Origin: Anaerolineae bacterium
Lineage (GTDB): Bacteria > Chloroflexota > Anaerolineae > 4572-78 > J111
Direction of reading: 5' to 3'
NCBI GenBank assembly: GCA_020433835.1
Contig: JAGRBY010000083.1
Location: 1 to 17,749, forward strand
DNA length: 17,749 bases
The translations under genes and the position numbers were made by a program. Below the pieces are notes generated by a model, which did no database searches, was not told the DNA's origin, and saw only the letters and a list, made by a program, of their open reading frames with translations. How positions within the stretch are numbered: position 1 is the stretch's first letter; each line of letters opens with the position of its first letter. This document shows, one piece after another, positions 3,195-17,694 of this stretch.

Positions 3195-4274
3195 ATGATC
3201 ATAGAAGACACCCTTGTTTGCCTTTGCACGCGACAGAATTTCGAATCGAGTCATAGCCAAACTTTACTTCATCTTTGCCAAACCCAATCCGTTCAGTGGG
3301 ACACCGTTTACGCGATTGCCGAACAGCATCAGATTGCGCCGCTGGTTTACCACAACTTATCGAAGTGTTCCCCCGAAGAGTTAAATATCCCCCCCGCCGT
3401 TCTTGCTCGCTTTAAGAAAGCTCAAATTCGCAATATTTTCGCCAAGAAACGAACCCAAGCCGCGCTGAAAAAGGTTCTGGCTCTTTTTGCGCAAAAGGGC
3501 ATTGATGTGATGGTGGTTAAGGGCGAAGCGTTGAGCCAATTGGTGTATGAACGGCCCTGGTACACCGTTTCGTATGACGTCGATCTGGTTATTCGAGCCA
3601 GGGAAGCGGACCTGGTTAAGGCTGACTATTGGGAGATTCTGGAATTTCTGGAAAAGTTTAACCAGGAACGCAGCGAGTTTAAAGAGCATATCGAGTATGA
3701 CTTTTATGAGCATCACGATGTGACGATGAATAATATTTTAAGCATTGATTGGCATCGTATCTGGGCCGAAGCGCGTAAAATTCAGATTGGCGGTTATGAT
3801 GTTTTTGTGATGACCCCCGAAGACATGCTGCTAACGACGGCTATCAATAGCTGTCGCAAGCGCTTTTTTCGGCTTAAATCTTTATGCGATCTGGCAACCA
3901 TTGTTGAAACACACCTCGACCTCGATTGGGAGGCGGTTATTCGTAAGGCCCATGCGTATAAATGCAACACCATTTTATATACGGCTTTTGTGGTTACGCA
4001 AGCGACCTTGGGCTGTCGGTTGCCTGATGGGATTATGACCGCTCTAAAGGTCAATCAACTTCGAGGTTCGCTTGTTCATTATCTGGTTCGCTCTTTATCT
4101 CAACAATTATCATTATCAAACTTATTTGTCCAGTCGGAAAATGCAACGTTCAAACGTACGTTGAGTTGGCCGTTGTTTCTAACCTATGTTACCTATCGGG
4201 TTGATCTCTTTTTGCCCAAGCTAGGTGAACTCTATACTGCCTGGCGTAATCCGCCGCCACCCGTTCCCAGTTAG
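3195..4274 (+). CDS. Nucleotidyltransferase-fold family protein (PF14907-like)
   Basis: A 359-residue protein resembling the uncharacterised nucleotidyltransferase family NTP_transf_5 (PF14907), whose members recur in lasso-peptide, RiPP and exopolysaccharide clusters. The expected active-site layout is present: VVKGEAL (K109-G110) followed about 20 residues later by SYDVDLV with the metal-binding pair D128 and D130. The C-terminal half has the family's helical part, including MTPEDMLL and RLKSLCDLA. Reaction and substrate are unknown; the fold suggests transfer of a nucleotide or phosphoryl group. It is the first gene of the array, 26 bp before a glycosyltransferase. The ATG is the first in frame and fits the family length, but no Shine-Dalgarno precedes it. 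A degenerate relative lies at 11609. Confidence 0.87.
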   Translation: MIIEDTLVCLCTRQNFESSHSQTLLHLCQTQSVQWDTVYAIAEQHQIAPLVYHNLSKCSPEELNIPPAVLARFKKAQIRNIFAKKRTQAALKKVLALFAQKGIDVMVVKGEALSQLVYERPWYTVSYDVDLVIRAREADLVKADYWEILEFLEKFNQERSEFKEHIEYDFYEHHDVTMNNILSIDWHRIWAEARKIQIGGYDVFVMTPEDMLLTTAINSCRKRFFRLKSLCDLATIVETHLDLDWEAVIRKAHAYKCNTILYTAFVVTQATLGCRLPDGIMTALKVNQLRGSLVHYLVRSLSQQLSLSNLFVQSENATFKRTLSWPLFLTYVTYRVDLFLPKLGELYTAWRNPPPPVPS

Positions 4275-4300: not shown

Positions 4301-5476
4301 ATGAAAGACCGCTCCATCCTGGTGATAGATGTCTGGATGCCGACGCCGGATCGCGATAGTGCTTCACTAAGAATAGTTAATTTGCTTTCCATTTTAGAGC
4401 AGATGGTGGGCCGGGTAACGTTTGGCGTTGGCGATCCTCCGCATTGGCGCACGGCTGAAAAGTGGCGGCCTTTGGTTCAGCCGCTCCAAGGTTCGATGAT
4501 CAGGTTGGTTGAAGGGAACGCCGCTATTGAAGCCCACCTGAAGCAACAGGGGCAAGATTATGATGTGGTCATATTGAGCCGGCTCAGCGTGGCGAGCCGG
4601 TATCTGCCGACGGTGCGTCGCTATGCACCCCAGGCGGCTGTGGTCTTCGACACCACCGATCTCCATTTCTTGCGCGGCTTTCGCGGAGCCAAGGTAACGG
4701 GCAAAGTCAATTTAATGCGAAGCGCCTTGCTGGCGAAAAAGGATGAATTAGCCCTGGCTCGCCAAGCGGACTGCACGCTCGTTGTTAGCCCTGTAGAGAA
4801 AACCATTTTAGAAGAAGAATGTCCCGATATATCGGTTCAGGTTATTTCAAACATTCATACGGCCTATGGTTCTCGGAAACCATTTTCAGAGCGAAGCGGA
4901 ATTATCTTTGTCGGTTCGTTCCCGCATCATCCCAATGTCGATGGGATGGTGTATTTTTATCAGGATATTTACCCCCTGCTCAAAGAACAATTGCCGGATA
5001 TAACGATCACCATCATCGGCAGCGATCCGCCGGAATGGCTAAAACAGGCCGCTGACGAGCAATTTATCGTCACCGATTATGTACCCGACATTGCGCCTTA
5101 TTTCGACCACAGCCGCCTCTCGATTGCGCCACTCCGTTACGGGGCGGGGGTTAAAGGCAAAGTCTTGCTGAGCATGGGCTACGGCGTGCCGGTGGTGGCT
5201 TCTTCAATCGCGGCTGAAGGCATTCCTGTGGTCAATGGTCGCGATATGCTCATCGCCGATACGCCGGCAAGCTTTAGCGAAGCCATCGTTGAACTTTATT
5301 ATAATGAAGCACTGTGGGATCAGATGTCGGCCAATGGGCTTAAGATCATTGACAAACATTTTTCTTTTACCACCGCCCGACAAGCCTTAACAGACTTATT
5401 AAATAGTTTGGGTCGAACAGTTCGAGTTGAGGGCAGCGATGTTTACGAAAGCGCATCTATTACGGAGGAAATATAA
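4301..5476 (+). CDS. Glycosyltransferase, GT-B fold (GT4-like)
   Basis: A 391-residue GT-B glycosyltransferase. The N-terminal acceptor half (about 1-190) begins with SILVIDVWMPTPDRDSASLR, an opening typical of GT4-like enzymes that build surface glycans, and contains VVFDTTDLHF near 115-124. The C-terminal nucleotide-sugar half (about 200-375) has IIFVGSFPHHPNVDG, the GVKGKVLLSMGYGVPVVASS segment near 282-301, and a helical tail. It resembles the Glyco_trans_1_4 type (PF13692). It would transfer a sugar from an activated donor to a glycan, lipid or peptide acceptor in the cytoplasm; donor and acceptor cannot be read from sequence. The ATG has a good ribosome site, and the next gene starts 2 nt after the stop, implying co-translation. 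Confidence 0.88.
   Translation: MKDRSILVIDVWMPTPDRDSASLRIVNLLSILEQMVGRVTFGVGDPPHWRTAEKWRPLVQPLQGSMIRLVEGNAAIEAHLKQQGQDYDVVILSRLSVASRYLPTVRRYAPQAAVVFDTTDLHFLRGFRGAKVTGKVNLMRSALLAKKDELALARQADCTLVVSPVEKTILEEECPDISVQVISNIHTAYGSRKPFSERSGIIFVGSFPHHPNVDGMVYFYQDIYPLLKEQLPDITITIIGSDPPEWLKQAADEQFIVTDYVPDIAPYFDHSRLSIAPLRYGAGVKGKVLLSMGYGVPVVASSIAAEGIPVVNGRDMLIADTPASFSEAIVELYYNEALWDQMSANGLKIIDKHFSFTTARQALTDLLNSLGRTVRVEGSDVYESASITEEI
5464..5468 (+). promoter_or_regulatory. Ribosome binding site inside the end of the GT4-type gene
   Basis: GGAGG lies 10 nt before the ATG at 5479 and is embedded in the last codons of the preceding gene. It sets the start of the short GT2 gene. Confidence 0.6.
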
Positions 5477-5478
5477 CG

Positions 5479-6198
5479 ATGCTTAATCCACCACCTCTGG
5501 TCAGTGTTATCATCCCTGTGTATAACGCCGAGCCGTATGTGGCTGAGGCCATAGAAAGCGTGCTGGCCCAGAGTTACAACCATATCGAAATCATCGCCGT
5601 TGATGATGGTTCAACCGACAACAGCGCAGCGGTAGTCAAACGCTTCCCGGCCGTTCACTATTATACTCAGCCCAATGCCGGTATCAGTGCCACGCGCAAC
5701 CGGGGTATAAAACAGGCGCAGGGCGACTTTCTGGCTTTTCTCGATGCCGATGATGTCTGGGTGAAAGAGAAGCTAGCCTTGCAGCTTGCTGCCTTTGAAG
5801 AGAATGCCCATCTGGATGTTGTGTTCGGCCACGTGAAGCAGTTTCGCAGCCCCGAGCTTAAAACAGTGCCAAATAACAAACCGTCTACCGTAGAGCCGCT
5901 CATGCCGGGCCATATCCCTTCAACCATGCTCATCAAGCGCGATGCTTTTTTTCGGGTAGGGCTGTTTGAAACCAACTGGAAAATGGGCGAATTTGCCAGT
6001 TGGTATCTACGGTCGTTGGAACAAGGGTTACAGCACATAATGCTGCCTGATCTGGTTGCCCGGCGACGGGTTCATGAAACAAATAACGGTATTCAACAGC
6101 GTACATCAATTCATGATTACGTGCATATTATCAAGGCCTCGCTTGATCGCCGTCGAGCGGCTGCTCTTAAGCGCGAGGAAAACAAAAAACACAGTTAA
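5479..6198 (+). CDS. Short family 2 glycosyltransferase (GT-A)
   Basis: A 239-residue GT2 enzyme. The donor-binding core shows VSVIIPVYNAE (8-18), VDDGSTDN (41-48) and the metal-binding DADD (89-92). After it comes FGHVKQFRSPEL near 115-126. The protein ends in a basic tail, IIKASLDRRR, shared in form with three other short GT2 proteins in this array. It lacks membrane segments and is near the minimum length for a GT2 domain, so it probably works on a soluble or carrier-bound acceptor in the cytoplasm. Its closest relative here is the gene at 16978, which shares FGHV-QF-SPEL, MLIKR, GEF--WY and the LDRRR tail. It directly precedes the PqqD-like gene. Donor and acceptor sugars unknown. Confidence 0.92.
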   Translation: MLNPPPLVSVIIPVYNAEPYVAEAIESVLAQSYNHIEIIAVDDGSTDNSAAVVKRFPAVHYYTQPNAGISATRNRGIKQAQGDFLAFLDADDVWVKEKLALQLAAFEENAHLDVVFGHVKQFRSPELKTVPNNKPSTVEPLMPGHIPSTMLIKRDAFFRVGLFETNWKMGEFASWYLRSLEQGLQHIMLPDLVARRRVHETNNGIQQRTSIHDYVHIIKASLDRRRAAALKREENKKHS

Positions 6199-6221: not shown

Positions 6222-6665
6222 ATGACCTATTTTCAAATCAATTCACCCCATGTTATTCACGAAATCATCGACGGCGAAGCCGTGCTGGTTAACCTGGAAA
6301 GCGGCAGCTACTACAGCATCGACAATATTGGGGCGGTCGTTTGGGATTACGTAGAAAAAGGTTTCAGCAGCAGCCAGATTGTTGAGGCCGTGGCGGCCCA
6401 ATATGACGGCAAAGCGGCTGATATCGATCAAGGTGTGCAAAATCTGTTCACCCAACTGCAAGCCGAGCAGTTAATTGTGCCCATCGAATCGTCGCCAACG
6501 AACGGACATGCCCCCGCGCTAAATGCAGCAGCGAATGGGCCGGATAAACCGCCATTTGAAGCGCCCGTCTTGCATAAATATACCGATATGGAAGACCTGC
6601 TCTTGTTAGACCCCATTCACGATGTGGATGAGACAGGCTGGCCCAATTTACCTGAAAATGTATAA
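6222..6665 (+). CDS. PqqD-like RRE protein with C-terminal leader-like tail
   Basis: A 147-residue protein. Residues 1 to about 90 form a PqqD-like RiPP recognition element (RRE): the pattern AVLVNLESGSYYSIDNIGAVVWDY is cut here to its hallmarks, LVNLESGSYYSID (26-38) and a Trp-containing helix. RREs bind leader peptides and hand them to modifying enzymes. About 20 low-complexity residues follow, then a tail (112-147) with FEAPVL (112-117), YTDMEDLLLLDPIHDV (120-135) and GWP (139-141). PqqD proteins are usually about 90 residues, so the tail is extra. Its F-x-x-P-x-L start resembles the Y-x-x-P-x-L motif by which lasso-type leaders bind RREs. It sits between a GT2 and an HPr-kinase-like gene (2-nt gap). 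Function of the tail is inference: intramolecular ligand, recognition tag or modified substrate. Confidence 0.88.
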   Translation: MTYFQINSPHVIHEIIDGEAVLVNLESGSYYSIDNIGAVVWDYVEKGFSSSQIVEAVAAQYDGKAADIDQGVQNLFTQLQAEQLIVPIESSPTNGHAPALNAAANGPDKPPFEAPVLHKYTDMEDLLLLDPIHDVDETGWPNLPENV

Positions 6666-6667
6666 CT

Positions 6668-7792
6668 ATGAATCATCAAACAAACCCGTCTAAGACTTTG
6701 TCGCGGAGAATACAACCTAATCCCGCTGCATTTTTTGAAACGGTTTACCAAGCCTTTCAAAATGCGGAACAGGCTGTGGGGAGTTCCATCGACCGCTACT
6801 ACAGCATTGATGGCCATACCATCCGGTTACGCTTTGCCGGACCGGCCCTGGTTGATGACCTTACGCCGGCGCTGGAACATCATGCCACCCCGCCCACGTC
6901 GGCACCGGCATTGACTATTTGTATTTGGGATTCGATGTCGACCCAAACGGAATGGCCGTCGTTTCCGTGGTGGGAATACTTCATGCATGTGAATTCAAAC
7001 GGCGAAAAGGTTAGCAACCTTTATACACCTCGGGGTGACATACGCGGTTACAATGATGGTCGAATTTACACCCATATTGGGGCTGACTTGTTCAGTATAC
7101 TGGATATCAAACAGAATATAGCTGTTTATTGGTGTCAAGACGCGGCGCAATTGCCCTTGTACGAAAAGGGAGCGCCGGTTCGTACCATTCTACACTGGTG
7201 GCTGCGTGACAAAGGGCTACAACTCCTACACGCCGGAGCCATTGGCACGCCCGATGGAGCCGTGTTGCTGGCCGGCAAAGGGGGATCGGGCAAATCGACC
7301 ACCGCTCTGACCGGGCTACAAAGCGACCTATTGTATCTAAGCGATGATTATTCGTTGGTAAAGTTAGGGTCACCACCCCACGTATACAGTTTATACAACA
7401 CTGCCAAAGTGCGCCCGGATAATCTAAAGCGGGTGCCACATCTTCATCACGCACTAACCAATGCCAATCGGCTTGAGACAGAAAAAGCGCTCTTTTTTAT
7501 CGGGCAGCATTATCCCGATAAAATCGTCAGCGATTTGCCCATTCGAGCCATTCTGCTACCAAAGGTAACAGGGCTGCCAGACACCACCATCGAACCGGCT
7601 GGTGCTAAAGAGGCCTTAAGTTCCTTGGCTTTAAGTTCCTTGCACCAGTTGGCCGGCTCCGGGAAAGCGTTGATACACACCATCAACCAACTGGTCAATC
7701 AGGTGCCAATTTATCATCTAAAACTGGGCACAGAACTCGATCAAATTCCTATGGTAATTTCAGATGTCATCGCCAGGGAGTCGGCACCATGA
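6668..7792 (+). CDS. HPr-kinase-like P-loop protein
   Basis: A 374-residue protein with a C-terminal P-loop kinase domain of the HPr kinase/phosphorylase type. The domain begins near LHAGAIG, then the Walker A loop GKGGSGKST (203-211) and LSDDYSLV with D226-D227, the likely metal-binding or catalytic acidic pair. The N-terminal half (1-190) has no recognised domain but is Trp-rich around WPSFPWWEYF. Proteins of this type accompany PqqD-like genes in lasso-peptide clusters, where some phosphorylate the precursor (PadeK-like), and in HprK-related exopolysaccharide loci. True HprK acts on the PTS protein HPr, for which there is no sign here. Substrate unknown; the neighbouring PqqD tail or a glycan carrier are candidates. 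The start lies 2 nt after the PqqD stop without its own Shine-Dalgarno, implying coupling. Confidence 0.85.
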   Translation: MNHQTNPSKTLSRRIQPNPAAFFETVYQAFQNAEQAVGSSIDRYYSIDGHTIRLRFAGPALVDDLTPALEHHATPPTSAPALTICIWDSMSTQTEWPSFPWWEYFMHVNSNGEKVSNLYTPRGDIRGYNDGRIYTHIGADLFSILDIKQNIAVYWCQDAAQLPLYEKGAPVRTILHWWLRDKGLQLLHAGAIGTPDGAVLLAGKGGSGKSTTALTGLQSDLLYLSDDYSLVKLGSPPHVYSLYNTAKVRPDNLKRVPHLHHALTNANRLETEKALFFIGQHYPDKIVSDLPIRAILLPKVTGLPDTTIEPAGAKEALSSLALSSLHQLAGSGKALIHTINQLVNQVPIYHLKLGTELDQIPMVISDVIARESAP

Positions 7793-7832
7793 ATACCTAT
7801 CCAAACCAACTAACAAGATTCAGCAACCTCGT

Positions 7833-9686
7833 ATGAACGCATTATCAACCTTATGGGCAAACTTTAAGCAACTTCTAACCAACATCCGCTGGGCGTTTCA
7901 GTTGACCTGGTCAACCAATTCAACCCTCTTTTTAGGCATTATGGGGGCCAATGCGGTACAGAGTTTGCTGCCGGCGGGCATTGCTTTGTCCTCACGGAAC
8001 TTAATCAACAGCGTGTCAGATATCTTGAACGGCCAAACTCAGAATACGAATGGCGTCATTTTTTGGCTAACCATCAGCGCGGTCATTGCCGTAGTGGGCG
8101 CGGTTGCGACCAATGCCCAACAGTTTTTCAATCAGCGCCTGAGAGATGAATTGGACCTGCGGATTACATCTGAGATGTTAACTCACGCGGCGGCGCTGGA
8201 CTTTGCCTTTTTTGAGGACCCAGAATCCAGAGATATGCTACATCGCGCCCGCAGCGATATGGCCGGCCACTTTGCCCAGTTTTTGACCATCGCCCTGGCC
8301 ATTATTACCAATATTATCCAGATTATCTCGCTCCTGATTATCTTGATGGTTATTCAGCCCATCATCCTGCTGCTCCTGCTGCCCATCAGCCTGATTTATG
8401 TGGCTTTTCAGTGGCACTACGCCAGTAAACGGTTTAAAGAAGAGCATGCTCGTACCACGAAAAACCGCTGGTTAGATTACTATGTTTCTCAAATGATGAA
8501 TGAGGACAGCGTAGCCCAGGTAAAACTTTTGGGACTCCAGCCCCTTTTTATCGAACAGTTTTGTACAATTACGGCCGAGTTTTTAGGTCGTAATCGGACA
8601 ATTTACCTGTACGGACTTATTGGCAGTGTGACGTTTGCCGTGCTATCTTCCGTGGCCATCTACTACGCCTTTGCCCTGGCCACCTTTCAAGTGATTGCCG
8701 GTGGGTTAACCATTGGCGATGTGGCTATTTATGGTGGCGCGGTAGTGCGGCTGCGGGGTGCTACTGAAAGTACCATTGGCTGGTTGGGCAGCCTGCGCTG
8801 GCAAACCCTGTTTGTCTCAAATTTAGCCGACTTTCTAGCCGTCAAACCCAAAATGACCAAAACGGGTCAGTTATGCCCCGGACCGGGGCGGGGCGAAATC
8901 GAACTAAAAGCGGTCAGTTTTACCTACCCCGGTGCCAGTCAGCCCACTTTACACAACGTATCACTATATATCGAGCCAGGCGAAACCCTGGCCATCGTGG
9001 GTGAAAATGGAGCCGGTAAAACCACACTCGTCAAACTGCTGGCCCGTCTTTACGACCCTGATGAGGGCCACATTCTGTTTGACCAGGTTGATATCCGCGA
9101 CCTGTCTCTGGATTATCTGCACCAGAATATCTCCTTTGTATTTCAGCATTTTGGCCGCTATGCCGCCACCGCCGGTGAGAATATAGCTTATGGCGATTGG
9201 AAAACCCTGCTGCACGACCCGCAAGCGGTCGAGCGTATTGCCCAGGCGGCGGGTGTCCACGAGATGATCGAAGCTATGCCGCAAAAATATGATACGATGC
9301 TGGGGCGTAACTTTGGCAAGTACAGTCTGTCGGGCGGACAGTGGCAGCGACTGGCCATTGCCCGCGCTTTTGCCCGCCAGCCTTCGCTGCTGATTTTGGA
9401 TGAACCGACGGCCAATCTGGATGCCAGAGCCGAGTATCAACTTTTTTCTGATTTCAAGAAGCTGGCTCAGAAACGCACAACTATTCTCATTTCACATCGC
9501 TTTTCAACGGTCAGCATCGCCGACCGGATTATTGTGATGGATAAAGGCCAAATTATTGAAAGTGGCACGCACGATGCCTTAATGGCTAAGGCCGGACACT
9601 ACGCCATGTTGTACAACCTCCATCATCGGCAGATGACAATACCCCTTAACGGCAACGGCGAAAAGGAATCGACATTGTGGCATTAA
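7833..9686 (+). CDS. ABC exporter (fused membrane and ATPase domains)
   Basis: A type IV half-exporter: an N-terminal six-helix membrane domain (about 30-310) followed by an ATPase domain. Walker A GENGAGKTTL starts at 390, the signature LSGGQ is at 499-503, Walker B LLILDEPT follows, and the H-loop is ISHRFST. All catalytic motifs are intact. There is no N-terminal C39 peptidase domain, so it does not remove leaders itself. It presumably works as a homodimer exporting the product of this locus, or flipping a carrier-linked intermediate. An earlier in-frame ATG at 7764 would add 23 hydrophilic residues and overlap the previous gene by 29 bp. I prefer 7833 because it begins right at the first conserved helix, but neither start has a clear ribosome site. 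It overlaps the sulfotransferase gene by 10 bp. Confidence 0.9.
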   Translation: MNALSTLWANFKQLLTNIRWAFQLTWSTNSTLFLGIMGANAVQSLLPAGIALSSRNLINSVSDILNGQTQNTNGVIFWLTISAVIAVVGAVATNAQQFFNQRLRDELDLRITSEMLTHAAALDFAFFEDPESRDMLHRARSDMAGHFAQFLTIALAIITNIIQIISLLIILMVIQPIILLLLLPISLIYVAFQWHYASKRFKEEHARTTKNRWLDYYVSQMMNEDSVAQVKLLGLQPLFIEQFCTITAEFLGRNRTIYLYGLIGSVTFAVLSSVAIYYAFALATFQVIAGGLTIGDVAIYGGAVVRLRGATESTIGWLGSLRWQTLFVSNLADFLAVKPKMTKTGQLCPGPGRGEIELKAVSFTYPGASQPTLHNVSLYIEPGETLAIVGENGAGKTTLVKLLARLYDPDEGHILFDQVDIRDLSLDYLHQNISFVFQHFGRYAATAGENIAYGDWKTLLHDPQAVERIAQAAGVHEMIEAMPQKYDTMLGRNFGKYSLSGGQWQRLAIARAFARQPSLLILDEPTANLDARAEYQLFSDFKKLAQKRTTILISHRFSTVSIADRIIVMDKGQIIESGTHDALMAKAGHYAMLYNLHHRQMTIPLNGNGEKESTLWH

Positions 9687-10459
9687 TTATCGGCGGACAT
9701 CCGCGCTCAGGCACAACCATACTACAAGAGGTGTGCGATCGACATCCGAACATATCGATCACCAACGAGTTCGGCAATTTCGCTTATCTGGGTCAATCCT
9801 ATCTGGAGTACAGTTACCGCATGATGCGGCGCTGGTGCCGAGTCGGTAATAAGTGGGCTTTCGATCTATCGTATAGTTCCCAGAAACCCTTAGGTTTGTA
9901 TAACTTCCTATTTACAACACGCTATTTACTAAGAATGGGGCAACCCCCTTGGCGGCCCATTGATGTTCAAACCATCGAGACAACCCTAAAACAAACTTTT
10001 CCTGAAGCGACTATCGTTGGGGACAAATGGCCGGATCATATGTTTTTGATGGACAACTTTGTAAAGAGAGACGATTTGTATTGCCTGGTTATCTATCGAG
10101 ATTGTCGTGATGTAACCAGTTCTTTTCTCAAGCAAACCCGAACCACTTGGCGTAAACAAGCCTGGGTTAACAGCCTCAATACGGCTGAAAAAGTAGCCAG
10201 GCGTTGGGTTGAGGTGATGCACTTAACGGAACGTCACGCCGATCAACTCCATATCATCCGCTATGAAGATTTGATCAAGAACCCTAAGGCGGTTTTTGCC
10301 TCCATTGGAGCGTGGCTTGGGGTCGATCCTGCCGGTTTTCCGGTAAATGCGATAAAGGAAACGAGCATTGGTAAATATAAAAAAGGCTTAACCAACGAAG
10401 AGTTAACGACGGTTATGAACATTGCCGGCCCAACTATGGCCCAGCTAGGTTATGATTAA
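9677..10459 (+). CDS. Sulfotransferase (PAPS-dependent)
   Basis: A 260-residue sulfotransferase. The 5'-phosphosulfate loop is GGHPRSGTT (6-14) at the very N-terminus, and the 3'-phosphate motif appears as IYRDCRDV (R141, R144) leading into SSFLKQTRTTW. RYEDLIKNP lies further on, near 195. These are the standard features of the Sulfotransfer_1/_3 families, which transfer sulfate from PAPS to a sugar or tyrosine hydroxyl. The start is GTG, placed so that the phosphosulfate loop begins a few residues in, as usual for the family; it overlaps the exporter gene by 10 bp. Its presence implies a sulfated product. In context the acceptor is probably a glycan made by the neighbouring glycosyltransferases, though lasso clusters also sometimes carry sulfotransferases. 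Confidence 0.92.
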   Translation: MALIIGGHPRSGTTILQEVCDRHPNISITNEFGNFAYLGQSYLEYSYRMMRRWCRVGNKWAFDLSYSSQKPLGLYNFLFTTRYLLRMGQPPWRPIDVQTIETTLKQTFPEATIVGDKWPDHMFLMDNFVKRDDLYCLVIYRDCRDVTSSFLKQTRTTWRKQAWVNSLNTAEKVARRWVEVMHLTERHADQLHIIRYEDLIKNPKAVFASIGAWLGVDPAGFPVNAIKETSIGKYKKGLTNEELTTVMNIAGPTMAQLGYD

Positions 10460-10550: not shown

Positions 10551-11612
10551 ATGAAAAATCACAAACTGGTCAGTATCATTATTCCCGTTTTTAACGGCGA
10601 GACGTATATTGTCGAAACAATCGAGAGTGTTTTCAACCAAACATACCCCTCATGGGAATTGATCGTTGTCGATGATGGTTCAACCGATGACACCCCCCAT
10701 ATTTTGCGTGCTTATAACAACCGCATTCGCTACATCTACCAGCCCAACAGCGGTGTATCTGCGGCCCGTAATCATGGTCTCCGCCTGGCTCAAGGCGACT
10801 ATATTGTCTTTCTTGATGCCGACGATCTTTTGCTGCCCAACAAACTAGCCGACCAGGTCGCTTGCCTGGATGCACACCCAACCGTAGGAAGCGTACATAG
10901 TGGCTGGCACTTAATCAACGCCCAGGGAGAATGTATCGATACCATCGAGCTGTGGCGTGAAGCTCCCGAACTCGATTTGGAAGCGTGGTTAACGCAGTGC
11001 CCTTTTTATTTACCGGCCATGATGTTCCGCCGCCATTGGTTGAAAAGTGTCGGGGGCCTTGATACAACGCTTCCCCAAGCCGAGGACGTTGATATGCTGC
11101 TGCGCATGCGGATGATGGGCTGTACGACGATCTGGCTACAGCAGCCAACCGTATGTTATCGCCAACATGGATCCAGTACGATGCGAAATGGTGTGCAGCA
11201 GGCGGAAAGTATTACCCAGGTGATGACGGCCTTCTTTGCCCGGCCGGATCTGCCTGACCAAATACACCAGTTACAGGACAAAATTCTTTTGAATACCTAC
11301 ATGTGGTGTGTCTGGCATATGTACGATACGGGCTATACCACCGAAATTGTCGATTACTTACGCCAGTCACGATTGTATATATCGGAATCACCCCTGCTAA
11401 CAGTCCGGCTCTGGTTAGAACGCTTTGCCAGAATGTGCGTTAAAAAAGGGTACAATCTTGAGGAACTGCGCGTCCTGTGGCCTCAGTTTAAGGCGGCTAT
11501 TCAGGTAGAGGAACCGCTCTGGCAGCAGATAGAGCAAGCCCTAAACCGCTGGCTCAAATTTATGATGGTTATGTACGCCAACGCTGAAAATGGCAAAGGA
11601 TTTGCTTCATGA
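10551..11612 (+). CDS. Family 2 glycosyltransferase with helical C-terminal extension
   Basis: A 353-residue GT2 enzyme. The GT-A core is canonical: VSIIIPVFNGE (7-17), VDDGSTDD (40-47), SAARNHG (70-76) and DADD (89-92). A region near 175-180 (PQAEDVDMLLRM) supplies the usual catalytic acidic residues. Beyond about 230 there is a helical extension rich in Trp, Leu and Arg, absent from the short GT2 proteins of this array. No membrane segment is evident. It follows the 91-bp repeat-bearing gap, so it may open a second transcription unit, and overlaps the next gene by 4 bp (ATGA). No strong Shine-Dalgarno precedes it; a purine stretch (AAAGAAA) is the only candidate. Sugar specificity unknown. 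Confidence 0.92.
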   Translation: MKNHKLVSIIIPVFNGETYIVETIESVFNQTYPSWELIVVDDGSTDDTPHILRAYNNRIRYIYQPNSGVSAARNHGLRLAQGDYIVFLDADDLLLPNKLADQVACLDAHPTVGSVHSGWHLINAQGECIDTIELWREAPELDLEAWLTQCPFYLPAMMFRRHWLKSVGGLDTTLPQAEDVDMLLRMRMMGCTTIWLQQPTVCYRQHGSSTMRNGVQQAESITQVMTAFFARPDLPDQIHQLQDKILLNTYMWCVWHMYDTGYTTEIVDYLRQSRLYISESPLLTVRLWLERFARMCVKKGYNLEELRVLWPQFKAAIQVEEPLWQQIEQALNRWLKFMMVMYANAENGKGFAS

Positions 11613-12751
11613 AAACCTGGCCTAGTTCATCCCAAAAAGCATTGCTGCGGGCTACATTTTTATCAGGAGATGAAGGAATTAAAGCTTTTGAGACATGGAA
11701 GTCTCAAATAGATATGGCGGATCACGCGGATTTGGGATCGTTTCGATTACTGCCGTTCCTGTTTCATCATTTAAAAACGCAAGGCATCGATGATCCACTC
11801 CTGATGAAGTTGAAAGGTATTGCCCGGCGAAACTGGTATAAAAACCAAGCGTTCTTCCGCCGATGGGCACCGCTGCTGCAAGCGCTTCATCAAGCCCAGA
11901 TTACGTGTATGATGCTTTCCGGGCCGGCTCTCGCTTGGGACGAATATCGTGACTACGCGCTTGATTCAGAAATGGAGTTAGCGCTATTGGTTCCGTCGAA
12001 ACAGGCACAAGCGGCCATCCACCAGCTTCAAGCCTTGGGCTGGCAGCCCAACAAACCCCTGCCAAACGATCTACTGGGGCCTTACATCAAGGCCGAATGG
12101 ATGCAATGCTTTAAAGATGCGGCCGGACGCAAACTCTGTCTGCACTGGCATCTGTTTCCGGCGGGGCGCACGGCGGTGGCTGAGGCTGATATTTGGGGCG
12201 CGGCCACAACTACGAAGATGCATGATGTGCCAATTCACCTCCTAAACCCGGTCGACCAAATCCTGTACAGTTGCTTTAAAGACCACGCCACCACCGACAC
12301 AGCCCGTTTTTTACGGGCTATTGACCTGATGCTCATTCTCCAAAACACACCCAATTTCAACTGGAACCGCTTGTGCAGCCAAGCCCAAAGACATCGTTTG
12401 ATTGTACCGTTGTTAGAGACACTGGGCTACATTCAAAGCACGCTTGATGAACCGCTTCCCTCGGCAGTCTGGCAGCAATTCCGCGCGTTTCCTATCACCC
12501 GACAAGAGCAGCTTGAGTACCGGCTCAAGACCAACTACCCGGAGGCGTGGTACCATATCTGGCAGCTCTGGTTTTACTATCGCTGTCGCACCGCCCAAAC
12601 ATCGCTTATCCGCGATGTGGTGGGGTTTCCCCAGCATCTGCAACACATTTGGCGACTGCGAAAGCTGCATCAGGTTCCTCGTCGGGCTATGGGCATTGTA
12701 CGCCGCCAGTTGCAACAGCACTTCTTCTATCATCAACGGGTCGGGCGTTAA
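11609..12751 (+). CDS. Degenerate nucleotidyltransferase-fold protein (PF14907-like)
   Basis: A 380-residue relative of the protein at 3195. The N-terminal helices (LLPFLFHHL near 45-53), the spacing between active-site regions and the helical C-terminal part (LLNPVDQILYSCFKDH) fit the family. The active site does not. Where intact members have K-G-x-A-L, this one has SGPAL (104-108). Where they have D-x-D, this one has SEMEL with E121 and E123, so both metal-binding aspartates are glutamates. It may be an inactive partner of the intact paralogue or a sugar-phosphate-binding protein, or it may tolerate Glu. The reading frame is open throughout with no frameshift, so it is not a decaying pseudogene. 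It is translationally coupled to the GT2 upstream by a 4-bp ATGA overlap. Confidence 0.75.
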   Translation: MKTWPSSSQKALLRATFLSGDEGIKAFETWKSQIDMADHADLGSFRLLPFLFHHLKTQGIDDPLLMKLKGIARRNWYKNQAFFRRWAPLLQALHQAQITCMMLSGPALAWDEYRDYALDSEMELALLVPSKQAQAAIHQLQALGWQPNKPLPNDLLGPYIKAEWMQCFKDAAGRKLCLHWHLFPAGRTAVAEADIWGAATTTKMHDVPIHLLNPVDQILYSCFKDHATTDTARFLRAIDLMLILQNTPNFNWNRLCSQAQRHRLIVPLLETLGYIQSTLDEPLPSAVWQQFRAFPITRQEQLEYRLKTNYPEAWYHIWQLWFYYRCRTAQTSLIRDVVGFPQHLQHIWRLRKLHQVPRRAMGIVRRQLQQHFFYHQRVGR

Positions 12752-12788
12752 GGTTGTGGCCCAGGGATACGCAGTGAGTGAGAGAGCG

Positions 12789-13532
12789 ATGACGTTAAAT
12801 ACCCCTTTGGTTAGCGTGATTATGCCCGTTTACAACGGGGCTGTATTTCTGGCCGAAGCCATCGAGAATCTTCGCCAGCAACAGTATGAACCGCTTGAAA
12901 TCATTATCGTTGATGATGGCTCAACCGACAACACGGGCCAAATCGTCGCCGGTTTAGGCAGTGACATTCGATATGTGTGTCAAACCAATCAAGGTCCGGC
13001 AGCGGCCCGCAATCACGGTCTCCAGCTAGCAACCGGCGAAGTAATCGCCTTTTTGGACGTGGATGATCTCTGGACAGAGCATTGGCTATCCACCCAGGTA
13101 GGTTTTTTAGCTGCACACCCGGCGGTCGATGTTGTGCAGGGGCTTATTCAAGAGTTACAGCTCGTAACCGGCTCAACGTTTGAGCCGGTCGCCGATCCTT
13201 ATTATTCGGTCAATCTTGGCAGCGCAATTTATCGTCGCCGGGTATTTGATTGGGTAGGGTTGTTTGATGAAACGCTCCACTATAATGAAGATACGGATTG
13301 GTTCATCCGGGCCTGGGACAAAAATGTTAGCAAAACCCAACTGGCTGAAGTGGCCCTTTTCTATCGCAAGCACGAAGGCAATATGACAAACGGTGGTAAT
13401 TCTAAACAGTCCGGGTTTGTCTGGCTCTTAAAGAAACGGTTGGATCAGCATCGAAAAAACAGCACTGTGTTGGGGCATGTGGCTTCGGGCCAATCTGTTA
13501 GCCTGACCGAATATATTGGCTGGCAAAAGTGA
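12789..13532 (+). CDS. Short family 2 glycosyltransferase (GT-A)
   Basis: A 247-residue GT2 enzyme with VSVIMPVYNGA (8-18), VDDGSTDN (41-48), AAARNHG (71-77) and DVDD (90-93). It ends in a basic helix of the same type as its siblings (LLKKRLDQHRKN). The open frame extends 345 bp upstream to 12444, but that stretch lies almost wholly inside the preceding gene in another frame, and its translation shows no GT2 similarity. The ATG at 12789 puts the first beta strand at the usual position, and GAGAG lies just upstream. A 37-bp gap separates it from the nucleotidyltransferase-like gene. Donor and acceptor cannot be told. Confidence 0.9.
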   Translation: MTLNTPLVSVIMPVYNGAVFLAEAIENLRQQQYEPLEIIIVDDGSTDNTGQIVAGLGSDIRYVCQTNQGPAAARNHGLQLATGEVIAFLDVDDLWTEHWLSTQVGFLAAHPAVDVVQGLIQELQLVTGSTFEPVADPYYSVNLGSAIYRRRVFDWVGLFDETLHYNEDTDWFIRAWDKNVSKTQLAEVALFYRKHEGNMTNGGNSKQSGFVWLLKKRLDQHRKNSTVLGHVASGQSVSLTEYIGWQK

Positions 13533-13541
13533 GAGATATCT

Positions 13542-14231
13542 ATGAACAATAAACCCCTGGTGAGTGTTATTATTATTGTCAAAAATGGCGAACGATTTTT
13601 AAGACAAGCCATCGACAGCGTTTTAGCCCAAAATTACACCTTACGGGAAATTATCGTAGTTGATGGTCAATCGGAAGATAAAACGGCGGAAATCGCTCAA
13701 TCATTTGAGCAAGTTAGCTATATTCGGCAGACCAATAAAGGTGTAGCGGATGCCTATAACCTGGGTATTGAGGTTGCAACCGGCGATTTAATTGCTTTTC
13801 TATCGCATGATGATTTGTGGCTACCCCACAAACTAAACCGCCAGGTTGACCAAATGCAACGTCAACCGCACATCCAATACACGGTGACCAAAATAAAATT
13901 TTTTCTGGAACCCGGCTGCGCCATCCCCGCAGGCTTTAAACCTGAGTTATTAGAAGGGGGGCATGTTGGCCGTATTATGGAAACCCTGGTTGCCCGCAAA
14001 AGCCTATTTAATTGGGTTGGAAAATTTGATGACGCTTATTCCATTGCCAACGATGTTGATTGGTACGCGCGGGTTAAAGACCAAAACATACCCATGGCCG
14101 TTATTCCGGAGGTATTGGTTCACAAACGCATTCACGATAAAAATACTGCTGCCGATGCTCAGGCAAATAACCAACAGTTGCTGCAAATTTTAAGGCGCTC
14201 ACTGCACCGTAAACGAAGCCAAAATGACTAA
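13542..14231 (+). CDS. Short family 2 glycosyltransferase, SHDD variant
   Basis: A 229-residue GT2 enzyme, the shortest in the array. The opening is VSVIIIVKNGE (7-17). The nucleotide-binding loop is VVDGQSEDKT (39-48), the VDGxSxDxT form, in place of the VDDGSTDN of the others. The metal-binding segment is SHDD (88-91) rather than DADD, so the first Asp is missing but the last two remain. It belongs to a different GT2 subgroup from its neighbours and probably uses a different donor or acceptor. The basic end LRRSLHRKR resembles the tails of the other short GT2 proteins. It starts 9 bp after the previous gene, with GAGAG nearby, and overlaps the next by 8 bp. Confidence 0.9.
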   Translation: MNNKPLVSVIIIVKNGERFLRQAIDSVLAQNYTLREIIVVDGQSEDKTAEIAQSFEQVSYIRQTNKGVADAYNLGIEVATGDLIAFLSHDDLWLPHKLNRQVDQMQRQPHIQYTVTKIKFFLEPGCAIPAGFKPELLEGGHVGRIMETLVARKSLFNWVGKFDDAYSIANDVDWYARVKDQNIPMAVIPEVLVHKRIHDKNTAADAQANNQQLLQILRRSLHRKRSQND

Positions 14232-15480: not shown

Positions 15481-16978
15481 CTCGGCCCACATTCACTATA
15501 AATTGGCCACCATGTGGCACGCCAAAGGGCATCTGGATCGCGCTGTGTCCGGCTATCGAGAAGCTATAAGCCTGCAACCCACTTATGTGCCGGCCCATCT
15601 GGAGCTGGGCAATGTGTTGTGTCGACAGGGCAATTTTGATGAAGCCATCGACGTTTTTCAACGGGCCATCGACCTTAATCCCAACGAAGCCATCTTCCCC
15701 CAAAAGTTGGCCGATCTTCTGGCTCGGAAAAAGGCAACCGTGGCTAACGGGCAAAATATCGGCCTGCCCGCCGCCACTTATCAACAGACAACCGCTAATG
15801 GCTTGGGCCACATTCTGCTGTATACCGATTGCCCTGGTATTCACGGGGCCGAGCAATGTAACCAGCTATTAATGCTCAATTTGGTGGAGGCCGGTTATCG
15901 CGTAAGCTGCGCCCAGAGCAAAGCCGATCACCATTTAATTCAGGAGCGCCATCAAGCCGGAATTCAGCATCTTTGGCTTGAGCCTGACGACATTTACAAC
16001 GACCCTCAGGGAGCCAACGCCTTTACCAACGCAGAAGAAGCGGCCTGGGTTATCAATACCGCCCGGCCCGACCTGATCATCTTTAGCGGCGGCTGCCCGG
16101 TTTCTAATTTGGTTGCCCAGCAAGTTGCCGCCCGGCTGGGAATTCCCTACCTGGTAATTGTGCATTGTGTAACCGCCGCTTGGGCCAACAAATTTAACGC
16201 CCACCTATTCAAGTTGCCCCCTATTTACCAGCAGGCTGAAGCCGTTATTGCCGTTTCCCAGGAGAATCTCACGCTGCTGCGCCAACACTTCGGGCTTCCC
16301 AATACGATGGGCCAGGTTCTTTACAACGGCAGGCCCAATTCCTTTTTTACGCCGGTTGACGCAGTTATACGCCGGCAGATACGTCGCCAACTGAATATAC
16401 CTGCTGAGGCCGTTGTTGTGTTCACCTCTGGTAGAATGGAAATGGTTAAAGGGTATCAGTATCAACTCCAAGCCATCAAACAAGTACGCCAGAAACCTGT
16501 TTGGTCCCATCTCTATTTTATGTGGGCCGGTACCGGCACGCTGGAGTCTCAATTAAGAGCTATTATCGCTCAGATTGATGCCGAAGATCACGTCAAATTT
16601 TTAGGCCAACGGTCAGACATCCCAGACTTACTCAATGCCGCCGATATTTTTGTACTCTCTTCGCATTTCGAGGGTATGCCCTTATCGGTGATGGAGGCGA
16701 TGGCCAAAGGGCTGCCGGTCATCGCCTCCGCGGTTAGCGGTACAGTCGAAGAGTTAGGTGACGCCGGCCACCTGCTGCCCAATCCGGGGGCTGATCCGGC
16801 AGGCGTTATCAACGGTTTGGCTGATACGTTAACCGCTTGGGCCACCGATACAAACTTACGCAGTGCAATAGGCCGAGCCTGTCAACAACGGGCCGAACGG
16901 CTCTTTCAGGCCGAACCCATGTTTAACCGCTATTTAGATATAATCCGGCAAACCCTAGCGAAAGATAATAATCCCTGA
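15452..16978 (+). CDS. TPR-fused family 4 glycosyltransferase (GT-B)
   Basis: A 508-residue protein from this start. Two TPR units occupy about 10-85 (YKLATMWHAKGHLDRAVSGY, then LGNVLCRQGNFDEAIDVF). The GT-B enzyme follows: an acceptor half from about 110 (HILLYTDCPGIHGAEQ) and a donor half with VFTSGRMEMVKGY and the GT4 hallmark E-x7-E as EGMPLSVME (E407, E415). It should be a retaining transferase using a nucleotide sugar. An ATG at 15425 would add nine residues and lengthen the overlap with the previous gene to 56 bp. I prefer 15452 because it aligns with the start of the TPR part in the upstream paralogue. Its stop shares one base with the next ATG (TGATG), indicating translational coupling. 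Confidence 0.9.
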   Translation: MTKHNNVIANSAHIHYKLATMWHAKGHLDRAVSGYREAISLQPTYVPAHLELGNVLCRQGNFDEAIDVFQRAIDLNPNEAIFPQKLADLLARKKATVANGQNIGLPAATYQQTTANGLGHILLYTDCPGIHGAEQCNQLLMLNLVEAGYRVSCAQSKADHHLIQERHQAGIQHLWLEPDDIYNDPQGANAFTNAEEAAWVINTARPDLIIFSGGCPVSNLVAQQVAARLGIPYLVIVHCVTAAWANKFNAHLFKLPPIYQQAEAVIAVSQENLTLLRQHFGLPNTMGQVLYNGRPNSFFTPVDAVIRRQIRRQLNIPAEAVVVFTSGRMEMVKGYQYQLQAIKQVRQKPVWSHLYFMWAGTGTLESQLRAIIAQIDAEDHVKFLGQRSDIPDLLNAADIFVLSSHFEGMPLSVMEAMAKGLPVIASAVSGTVEELGDAGHLLPNPGADPAGVINGLADTLTAWATDTNLRSAIGRACQQRAERLFQAEPMFNRYLDIIRQTLAKDNNP

Positions 16979-17694
16979 TGAACACAAAAGTTAACCCTAA
17001 CCCATCAATCACACTTATTGTTCCCGTCTATAATGGCGAAAAATACTTAGCCGAAGCCATTGCAAGTATTCTAAGCCAAAGCCGTCCCCCGCAAGAGATT
17101 ATTATCATTGACGATGGCTCAACCGATAATACCGCCGCTGTCGCCAAAGGTTTTGGCGACCGGGTACGGTATTATTACCAGCCCAACCAGGGGGCCGGTG
17201 CCGCCCGAAATAACGGCGTCACCCTGGCGCAGGGCGATGCGTTGGCCTTTCTTGATGCCGATGATATCTGGGCCGAAGCTAAACTGGCCCATCAAATACA
17301 AGCATTGGCCGCCGACCCCGCGCTGGATATGGTTTTTGGCCATGTGCAGCAATTTCACAGCCCGGAACTGCCGGATGAGGTCAAGCAGCAAATCAAAATT
17401 CCGGCTGAGATTGTGCCGGGCCAGCATGTGGGGGCGATGCTGATTAAACGCGAGTCATTTCAAAAAGTTGGCCCTTTTAGAACCGATTGGGAAATTGGCG
17501 AGTTTATCGACTGGTACGCCCGAGCCGAAGAGCGAGGGCTAAAAAGCCTGATGCTGCCGCAGGTCGTCATGAAACGACGCTTACACAAAGCCAGTCAAGG
17601 AACCTACAAACGCGAACATCAAAAAGAGTACGTTCGTGTTCTCAAAGCCGCTCTGGATCGACGGCGGCAAAAGAATAAAAGCAGAGCCGGTTGA
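16978..17694 (+). CDS. Short family 2 glycosyltransferase (paralogue of the one at 5479)
   Basis: A 238-residue GT2 enzyme. The GT-A core shows ITLIVPVYNGE (11-21), IDDGSTDN (44-51), GAARNNG (74-80) and DADD (93-96). The second half tracks the protein at 5479 closely: FGHVQQFHSPEL, MLIKRESF, WEIGEFIDWY and the tail VLKAALDRRR occur in the same order and spacing. The two probably share a donor, or act on related acceptors. It is the last gene in view. A 7-bp imperfect hairpin (17706-17727) without a T-run and then AAGGAG at the window edge follow, so transcription likely continues. Specificity unknown. Confidence 0.92.
   Translation: MNTKVNPNPSITLIVPVYNGEKYLAEAIASILSQSRPPQEIIIIDDGSTDNTAAVAKGFGDRVRYYYQPNQGAGAARNNGVTLAQGDALAFLDADDIWAEAKLAHQIQALAADPALDMVFGHVQQFHSPELPDEVKQQIKIPAEIVPGQHVGAMLIKRESFQKVGPFRTDWEIGEFIDWYARAEERGLKSLMLPQVVMKRRLHKASQGTYKREHQKEYVRVLKAALDRRRQKNKSRAG

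Follow-up and report, generated by a model that had tools for sequence, protein, structure and literature searches.

A conserved leader-like tail carried in cis by PqqD-type RRE proteins beside kinase and sugar-transfer genes

Described cassettes and the locus compared with them

RREs determine how many RiPP enzymes find their substrates. Among the described systems, the closest to the one dealt with here are the LPP clusters, which, in the sections of the report that define them, bring together LppB, LppK, LppN and LppD, with an HprK kinase that polyphosphorylates Ser, an NTP transferase and an MsbA-like exporter (PMC13381572). The same sections describe a separate precursor, LppA, with the leader YxxPxVLxHQxIxFETxxS, a discrete RRE and the leader peptidase SpI; outside the groove, the LPP leader has no clear contact with the RRE, and the authors suggest that this portion binds enzymes (PMC13381572). 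As far as the relevant parts of the reports go, the same kinds of enzyme phosphorylate and glycosylate the precursors of paeninodin and pseudomycoidin (PMC8498205) and of LPP (PMC13381572), the pseudomycoidin NTP transferase adding a hexose to the phosphate (PMC8498205). Engineered leader-enzyme fusions, in the passages devoted to them, are constitutively active on leaderless substrates (PMC13003496, PMC10604976), and a survey of PF05402 gives, in its part on protein size, 21% of proteins above discrete RRE size without other Pfam annotation (PMC12710340).

The window, that is the whole stretch of 17,749 nucleotides analysed here (contig JAGRBY010000083.1 of an Anaerolineae bacterium), holds at 6222-6665(+) an ORF for a 147-aa protein made up of a PqqD-type RRE, a linker and a leader-like tail, with AGGAG 5' of its ATG (Table 1). 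Residue 110 begins at position 6549, and re-reading the ORF showed that the original prediction, which had pointed to an RRE protein with a leader-like, acidic tail of its own, had the coordinates and letters of that tail right. The protein includes the stretch DPIHDVDETGWP; the landmarks of its tail are F112-E-A-P115-V-L117, Y120-TDMEDLLLLDPIHD-V135 and G139-W140-P141, and the C-terminal part as a whole runs F112-EAPVL-HK-Y120-TDMEDLLLLDPIHDVDETGWP141-NLPENV. PF05402 is matched at residues 19-85 with 49 bits, above the gathering cut-off of 23.4, and the winged-helix RRE fold is present; the best NCBIfam match of the RRE is lasso_PqqD_Bac, and the score against NF033536 (lasso B1) is 52.9 bits, below the NCBIfam cut-off of 80.

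Table 1. Parts of the tail-bearing protein and neighbouring genes in the window
Feature	Position	Strand	Remarks
RRE, PqqD-like winged helix, residues 1-88	6222..6485	+	
Linker, low-complexity, residues 89-111	6486..6554	+	10-25 aa in 70 relatives; pLDDT blocks 53 and 60
Leader-like segment F112-EAPVLHK-Y120, modelled strand 117-120	6555..6581	+	P115 71/71, F112 90%, L117 80%; pLDDT 91
Acidic/Leu segment T121-D122-M123-EDLLLL129, short modelled helix 123-127	6582..6608	+	D122 71/71, M123 94%, Leu 89-93%
D130-PIHDVDETGW-P141, most conserved motif	6609..6644	+	D130, P131, H133, G139, P141 71/71; pLDDT ~50-53
Variable C-terminus NLPENV and stop	6645..6665	+	3-20 aa after GWP in 70 relatives
NTP_transf_5 nucleotidyltransferase 1	3195..4274	+	PF14907, 130.2 bits
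GT4-type glycosyltransferase	4301..5476	+	PF13692
GT2 glycosyltransferase, immediately upstream of tail gene	5479..6198	+	PF00535
HprK-like kinase	6668..7792	+	Walker A GKGGSGKS; His188 invariant in 18 aligned; TIGR04352 E 7e-7, 28.6 bits, cut-off 200
MsbA-type ABC exporter	7764..9686	+	PF00664/PF00005; best NCBIfam match MsbA_lipidA, 324.5 bits, cut-off 602
Sulfotransferase	9677..10459	+	PF13469, 65 bits
GT2 glycosyltransferase	10551..11612	+	PF00535
NTP_transf_5 nucleotidyltransferase 2	11609..12751	+	PF14907, 92.8 bits
GT2-like glycosyltransferase	13542..14231	+	NCBIfam glycosyltransferase matches below cut-off; resembles 5479-6198 gene
GT2-like glycosyltransferase	16978..17694	+	resembles 5479-6198 gene

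The kinase gene starts 2 bases past the stop of the tail gene and the genes downstream overlap at 7764/7792 and 9677/9686, so that, judged by spacing, the tail gene, the kinase and the overlapping genes appear to be arranged as in an operon. The kinase has no Pfam match, and no peptidase domain was matched in the ABC exporter. A further GT2-like ORF at 12444-13532(+) is listed with a start that falls within the nucleotidyltransferase gene before it; the ATG ahead of TLNTPLVSVIMPVYNG is probably where it really starts. At the edge of the locus, 153-2777 on the opposite strand (-) encodes a clostripain-family (Peptidase_C11) protein with a Gly/Ser-rich stretch.

The likeness to LPP lies in the RRE, the HprK-like kinase, the NTP transferase and the MsbA-like exporter, in loci rich in polysaccharide and glycosyltransferase genes, and in a leader motif that in LPP is Y-x-x-P-x-V; the kinase, NTP transferase and exporter by which an LPP cluster is recognised are all encoded in the window, the kinase and the exporter with scores below the NCBIfam cut-offs. 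LPP clusters have a separate LppA and SpI, whereas at the tail loci the RRE itself bears the leader-like motif, and no precursor or SpI turned up alongside. No SpI match occurred among 9 window proteins scanned with NCBIfam, and in 34 tail-bearing genomes, many of them with short contigs, the SpI (TIGR02228) matches lay either on a different contig or no closer than 72 kb to the tail; with SpI located elsewhere, membership of the tail loci in LPP was rejected.

Lasso clusters of the paeninodin and pseudomycoidin kind, with a PbaB1-type B1, resemble the tail loci in RRE sequence, kinase, nucleotidyltransferase and, in some, a sulfotransferase, but the RRE of the window falls below the lasso B1 cut-off, its motif is in cis, and no B2 peptidase or lasso cyclase was matched among the window proteins scanned (10 with Pfam, 9 with NCBIfam). 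B2 (PF13471) scored above cut-off in 8 of the 34 tail genomes and shared a contig with the tail in just one (L018/G010, about 10 kb away), which led to a lasso origin being discarded.

The engineered fusions (LctM, cyanobactin YcaO and ThurKC in the pertinent part of PMC10604976) are alike in having a leader covalently joined to its recognition partner, but they are man-made and on the enzyme itself, whereas the tail is natural and on a discrete RRE. The 147-aa protein is one of the oversized PF05402 proteins, and the parts of the survey on these name no such tail (PMC12710340); none of four tail motif strings occurred, and no description of the tail was recognised, in the literature searched, which left out most subscription papers and bioRxiv. 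RREs and the paeninodin/LPP cassette are known, and the conserved leader-like tail in cis is new.

Conservation, gene company and spread of the tail

A search with the 147-aa protein returned 1837 relatives, and among the best 120 of these, in which the tail was read, all 120 bear it, 119 fitting the strict pattern and P0061 being one residue off. A query with the RRE only (residues 1-92) gave 54 proteins, mostly close relatives (51 shared with the 120 and 3 new), with the tail in 54 of 54, and the earlier impression that other PqqD-like proteins bear related tails was borne out by both counts. A genome scan for the tail pattern gave 246 encoding stretches, of which 80 loci were kept; in 79 of these 80 tail-selected loci an in-frame RRE lies directly upstream (E <= 1e-3, by a profile built from the window protein's close relatives). 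The fused leader-like tail is real and not a matter of chance. Viral contigs gave 35 matches to the pattern and 0 confirmed tails, and an NCBIfam search with the tail alone and four RRE-less tail proteins yielded nothing useful.

In 71 aligned sequences of less than 55% identity, P115, D122, D130, P131, H133, G139 and P141 are the same throughout, and the consensus of the class is F-x-x-P-x-L-x-K-Y-T-D-M-[EQ]-[DE]-LLLLDPIH[DE]V-D-E-x-GWP. The mean frequency of the top residue is 0.78 over residues 112-141, a figure inflated by the largely tail-selected make-up of the set, 0.47 over residues 1-88 and 0.22 over the linker and C-terminus; within this largely tail-selected set, conservation is higher in the tail than in the RRE. 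The alignment omits L019, L070, L104 and L117 as pattern misses (L117, from G227, being a fragment of the tail that contains a stop) and L081-L100, L108, L109, L118 and L119 as repeats, and it includes the RRE-less L048, which was dropped for counts over 70 rows. The codons under LLDPIHDV, a motif that the script found in 78 of 80 loci, vary synonymously, so the constraint acts on the protein.

Within 9 kb of the tail, over 79 loci and the window, HprK was found in 64 of 80, GT2 in 66, NTP_transf_5 in 54 and ABC in 33, and the kinase lies no more than 1.5 kb away in 51 of the 80. Where both flanks are long (36 loci), the counts are 31 for HprK, 33 for GT2, 29 for NTP_transf_5 and 15 for ABC, and at least three of the four enzyme kinds are present in 28 of the 36. 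A sulfotransferase occurs at L038, as it does in the window.

To avoid selection by the tail itself, three phyla (301, 198 and 292 genomes) were scanned with a profile built from the adjoining kinase. The scan gave 18 matches, of which the 3 inside the three centre genomes were set aside. For 13 of the 15 remaining, an RRE was present in the stretch read, and none of these 13 is among the 80 tail-selected loci; 11 have canonical tails, 2 have variants and 0 are tailless. The other two, G551 (at a contig end) and G596 (with no RRE in 12 kb), were excluded and not counted as support. The variants, L125 and L155 (2198-2662), keep YxxPx[LF]xx[YF]xDMxxLLALDP and continue with PMP...[FI]PW, not IHDV..GWP. 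In the 34 tail-bearing genomes, a PF05402 match lies no more than 600 bases from 38 of the 40 tail matches, and 60 of 98 PF05402 matches are tailless, whereas none of the 13 kinase-anchored loci is; the tail is accordingly the mark of a class tied to the kinase. Conservation of the tail, one of two points on which the original prediction could have failed, held both in the 120 homologues listed and at loci reached through the kinase.

The kinase was found in 6 of 301, 2 of 198 and 8 of 292 genomes of the three phyla. The tail turned up in 11 of 297 genomes from the phylum to which L048 belongs and in 7 of 398 from that of L047. The 80 tail loci carry the names of Chloroflexi, Cyanobacteria, Acidobacteria, Nitrospirae, Bacteroidetes, Ignavibacteria, Gemmatimonadetes, Proteobacteria, Verrucomicrobiota, Lentisphaerae, Brocadiia and others, by record titles as deposited, mostly of MAGs in which misbinning is possible. 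The class is spread over many phyla, rare in each, and patchy as a mobile cassette would be. A complete, mobilizable cyanobacterial plasmid, pCRI9333.04 of the culturable Crinalium epipsammum PCC 9333, carries in its region L160 (NC_019735.1 5896-17248) a cassette of PqqD-tail, two nucleotidyltransferase, HPr kinase, FkbM, two GT-A and ABC genes, and its location there suggests horizontal spread.

The leader-like motif and its modelled strand

Lasso and LPP leaders, in the portions of the LPP report that compare them, have Tyr or Trp at position 1 of the motif (PMC13381572). Measured against [Y/W]xxPx[L/V/I/F/A], the tail departs at that position, which is Phe in the window protein and in 90% of the 71 sequences, with Tyr or Trp in few, and agrees in the Pro at +3 (P115, 71/71) and the aliphatic residue at +5 (L117, 80%). 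In the AlphaFold model of the window protein, the block 111-120 has a pLDDT of 91 with a strand at 117-120, and in that of the L059 homologue, with an RRE 28% identical to the first, a strand at 121-124 lies in the same register in a block of pLDDT 95. The reference register is that of the PbaA leader strand, E-9 to L-7, in the PbaB1 crystal as the LPP report presents it (PMC13381572), and the predicted L-x-K-Y strand matches, with confidence, the register of leaders in the lasso and LPP RRE crystals. The register suggests the groove of the RRE as the partner of this strand, although the models could also stem from docking in trans, within a dimer, or from memorisation by the predictor. The positions mapped from the PbaB1 pocket are more conserved than other RRE positions (0.66 vs 0.46, permutation p 0.013), these pocket positions being core positions as well and 2 of 10 (36 and 63) not mainly hydrophobic.

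Beyond the strand, a short helix appears in both models, in a block of mean pLDDT 60 in the window protein and 80 in the L059 homologue, and DPIHDV..GWP is modelled with pLDDT of about 50-53 and 55-68, respectively; this low-confidence segment might be a motif for a partner or a site of reaction. With the proposal that the tail sits in the groove in cis, the models agree so far as the block 111-120 forms a confident strand in the leader register (pLDDT 91 and 95); they do not support docking of the whole tail, the rest of which stands at 50-60 (55-80 in the homologue). A model that left the tail disordered was named beforehand as evidence against the prediction, and the outcome is divided between the confident 111-120 and the low-confidence DPIHDV..GWP. 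Upheld, too, are the leader-like nature claimed for the tail, its conservation, its fusion to an RRE and the confident prediction of a strand in the leader register.

Readings of the tail

A separate precursor was sought among 2684 small ORFs (20-130 aa) from 81 loci by clustering, and no conserved one was seen, in a set that omitted small ORFs overlapping a frame of at least 180 aa by 30%, so that a masked precursor is possible. The five clusters spanning at least 5 loci are antisense readings of PqqD genes (up to 8 members of each were viewed), and the other seven of the first 12 are 3-locus sets. Small ORFs with a leader motif, 9 of 72 of which were viewed, looked accidental by eye and were rejected as precursors, as were short frames with such a motif in the plasmid region L160. 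Among the 46 annotated features of pCRI9333.04, in a gene table that is incomplete and lists many hypothetical proteins, no lasso cyclase, leader peptidase or precursor appears by name. That no separate precursor is in view, as had been noted for the window, agrees with the 81 loci and the plasmid. SpI-like genes do lie near small tailless RREs at L131:6102-8164, L132:997-7011 and L133:7496-10599, and these were set aside as other systems; L130 had also been considered as a possible SpI-RRE locus, and its RRE frame is absent from the ORF list. Short ORFs with a leader motif occur in L131 (TYEAPVV...) and L132 (FEAPQIVTYT...), and the latter has FEAP..xxYT in common with the tail, a 12-residue match (E 7e-4 for the pair) that was picked by eye and serves as illustration only.

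The best reading, put forward tentatively and falling a little short of probable, is that of an RRE that comes pre-loaded in nature and would serve a phospho-glycosylation cassette as its adaptor or activator. It is favoured because, unlike in LPP, the RRE carries the leader-like element and no precursor or leader peptidase turned up, and it combines observed sequence, conservation and gene context with a predicted docked strand. The conserved pocket positions, the recurring cassette enzymes and an RRE-tail-HprK fusion (L154) also speak for it. The F-x-x-P-x-L-x-x-Y segment would fill the leader groove of its own RRE as a permanent mimic of the RRE-leader complex, and LLLLDPIH[DE]V..GWP would project past the groove and be recognised by the enzymes of the cassette; such a role for DPIHDV..GWP is favoured by analogy with what the LPP authors suggest for the part of the leader off the RRE. 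The pre-loaded RRE would recruit or activate a cassette of the paeninodin/LPP kind, in which the HprK-like kinase would act first, followed by NTP_transf_5 and the GT2s, on an acceptor without a leader, which might be a peptide, a protein or a glycan, and the product would exit by the MsbA-like exporter. Against this reading count the finding of ABC in just 33 of 80 loci, the rarity of the class, the tails that occur without an RRE and the degenerate F-x-x-P of L147-L149. A wider claim, that the fused leader frees RiPP-type kinases, nucleotidyltransferases and glycosyltransferases from a leader on the substrate, with leaderless proteins or capsule-type glycans being decorated in many phyla, is conceivable and rather doubtful.

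The main rival, unlikely on balance, is a fused RRE-precursor, in which the RRE presents its own tail and the enzymes build a phospho-glycan on T121, H133 or near GWP, the protein serving as carrier or primer. It would fit the precursor modification by the same enzyme kinds in paeninodin, pseudomycoidin (PMC8498205) and LPP (PMC13381572), as these are described in part, together with the failure to find a separate precursor at 81 loci and on plasmid L160. H133 and D130 are present in 71 of 71, T or S at 121 in 61 of 70, and short RRE-less tail peptides exist, but there is no invariant Ser/Thr: position 138 is Ser/Thr in 34 of 70, some Ser/Thr follows GWP in 46 of 70, and in 10 of 70 neither residue occurs anywhere from D122 onward. 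Nothing is conserved past GWP, and core peptides are unlike the near-identity that the tail keeps across many phyla. SpI (TIGR02228) lies at least 72 kb off where it is on the same contig, and B2 reaches the tail contig in the single genome mentioned above. In L154, from a genome of the cyanobacterial set, a single frame at 7171-9120(-) comprises an RRE, then the tail, then what looks by eye like another RRE stretch, and lastly the HprK-like kinase, so that the tail is internal and not C-terminal. The suggestion that the neighbouring enzymes take the tail as their substrate has therefore lost ground: position 121 and H133 would serve it, and the want of an invariant Ser/Thr, the 10 of 70 and the internal tail of L154 weigh against it.

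A role outside RiPPs, in which a polysaccharide machine would use the PqqD fold as a structural or assembly subunit, with the tail docking an assembly partner of glycosyltransferase or exporter type, is improbable. GT2 genes within 9 kb at 66 of 80 loci and the sulfotransferases of the window and L038 would suit it, as would frames that by eye are HprK-GT2 fusions, apparently linking kinase and glycosyltransferase activities, at four loci (L038:9331-11115, L068:11271-13091, L075:9411-11219 and L045:14292-16286). The proteobacterial RRE proteins L147, L148 and L149 keep DPIHEV..GWP and have a degenerate F-x-x-P-x-L, which weakens groove docking as a universal purpose and leaves room for the second half of the tail, to judge from these sequences, to have an older or more general function. 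Most of the mapped groove residues and the F-x-x-P-x-L spacing are nonetheless kept in most members, which speaks against a role outside RiPPs. Least probable of all is an autoinhibitory plug, which would keep the groove shut until pushed out by a true leader from a gene elsewhere, for although Phe in place of Tyr or Trp at position 1 and the location in cis might suit a weak, displaceable ligand, and some of the same genomes have RRE systems with short leader-motif ORFs (L131, L132), the residues that are conserved best come after the modelled strand, where a plug would not need them, and systems of the L131/L132 type have tailless RREs of their own.

Were the pre-loaded RRE to prove true, evolution would have used the leader-fusion trick known as a laboratory route to leader-free modification, a set of loci with an RRE and no precursor would be explained, and RiPP tailoring would be linked to polysaccharide-type loci. 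For genome mining, the class offers the motif [FYW]xxPx[LVIF]xx[YF]xDMxxLLLLDPIH[DE]VxxxGWP.

The tail is also found by itself. RRE-less tail peptides of 31-65 aa (P0121-P0125), some perhaps truncated, and an 83-aa tail ORF without an RRE at L048:1589-1840(+), beside a GMC oxidoreductase, show that the tail can occur alone; the genome of the latter has two more genes in which RRE and tail are joined (L103 and L106).
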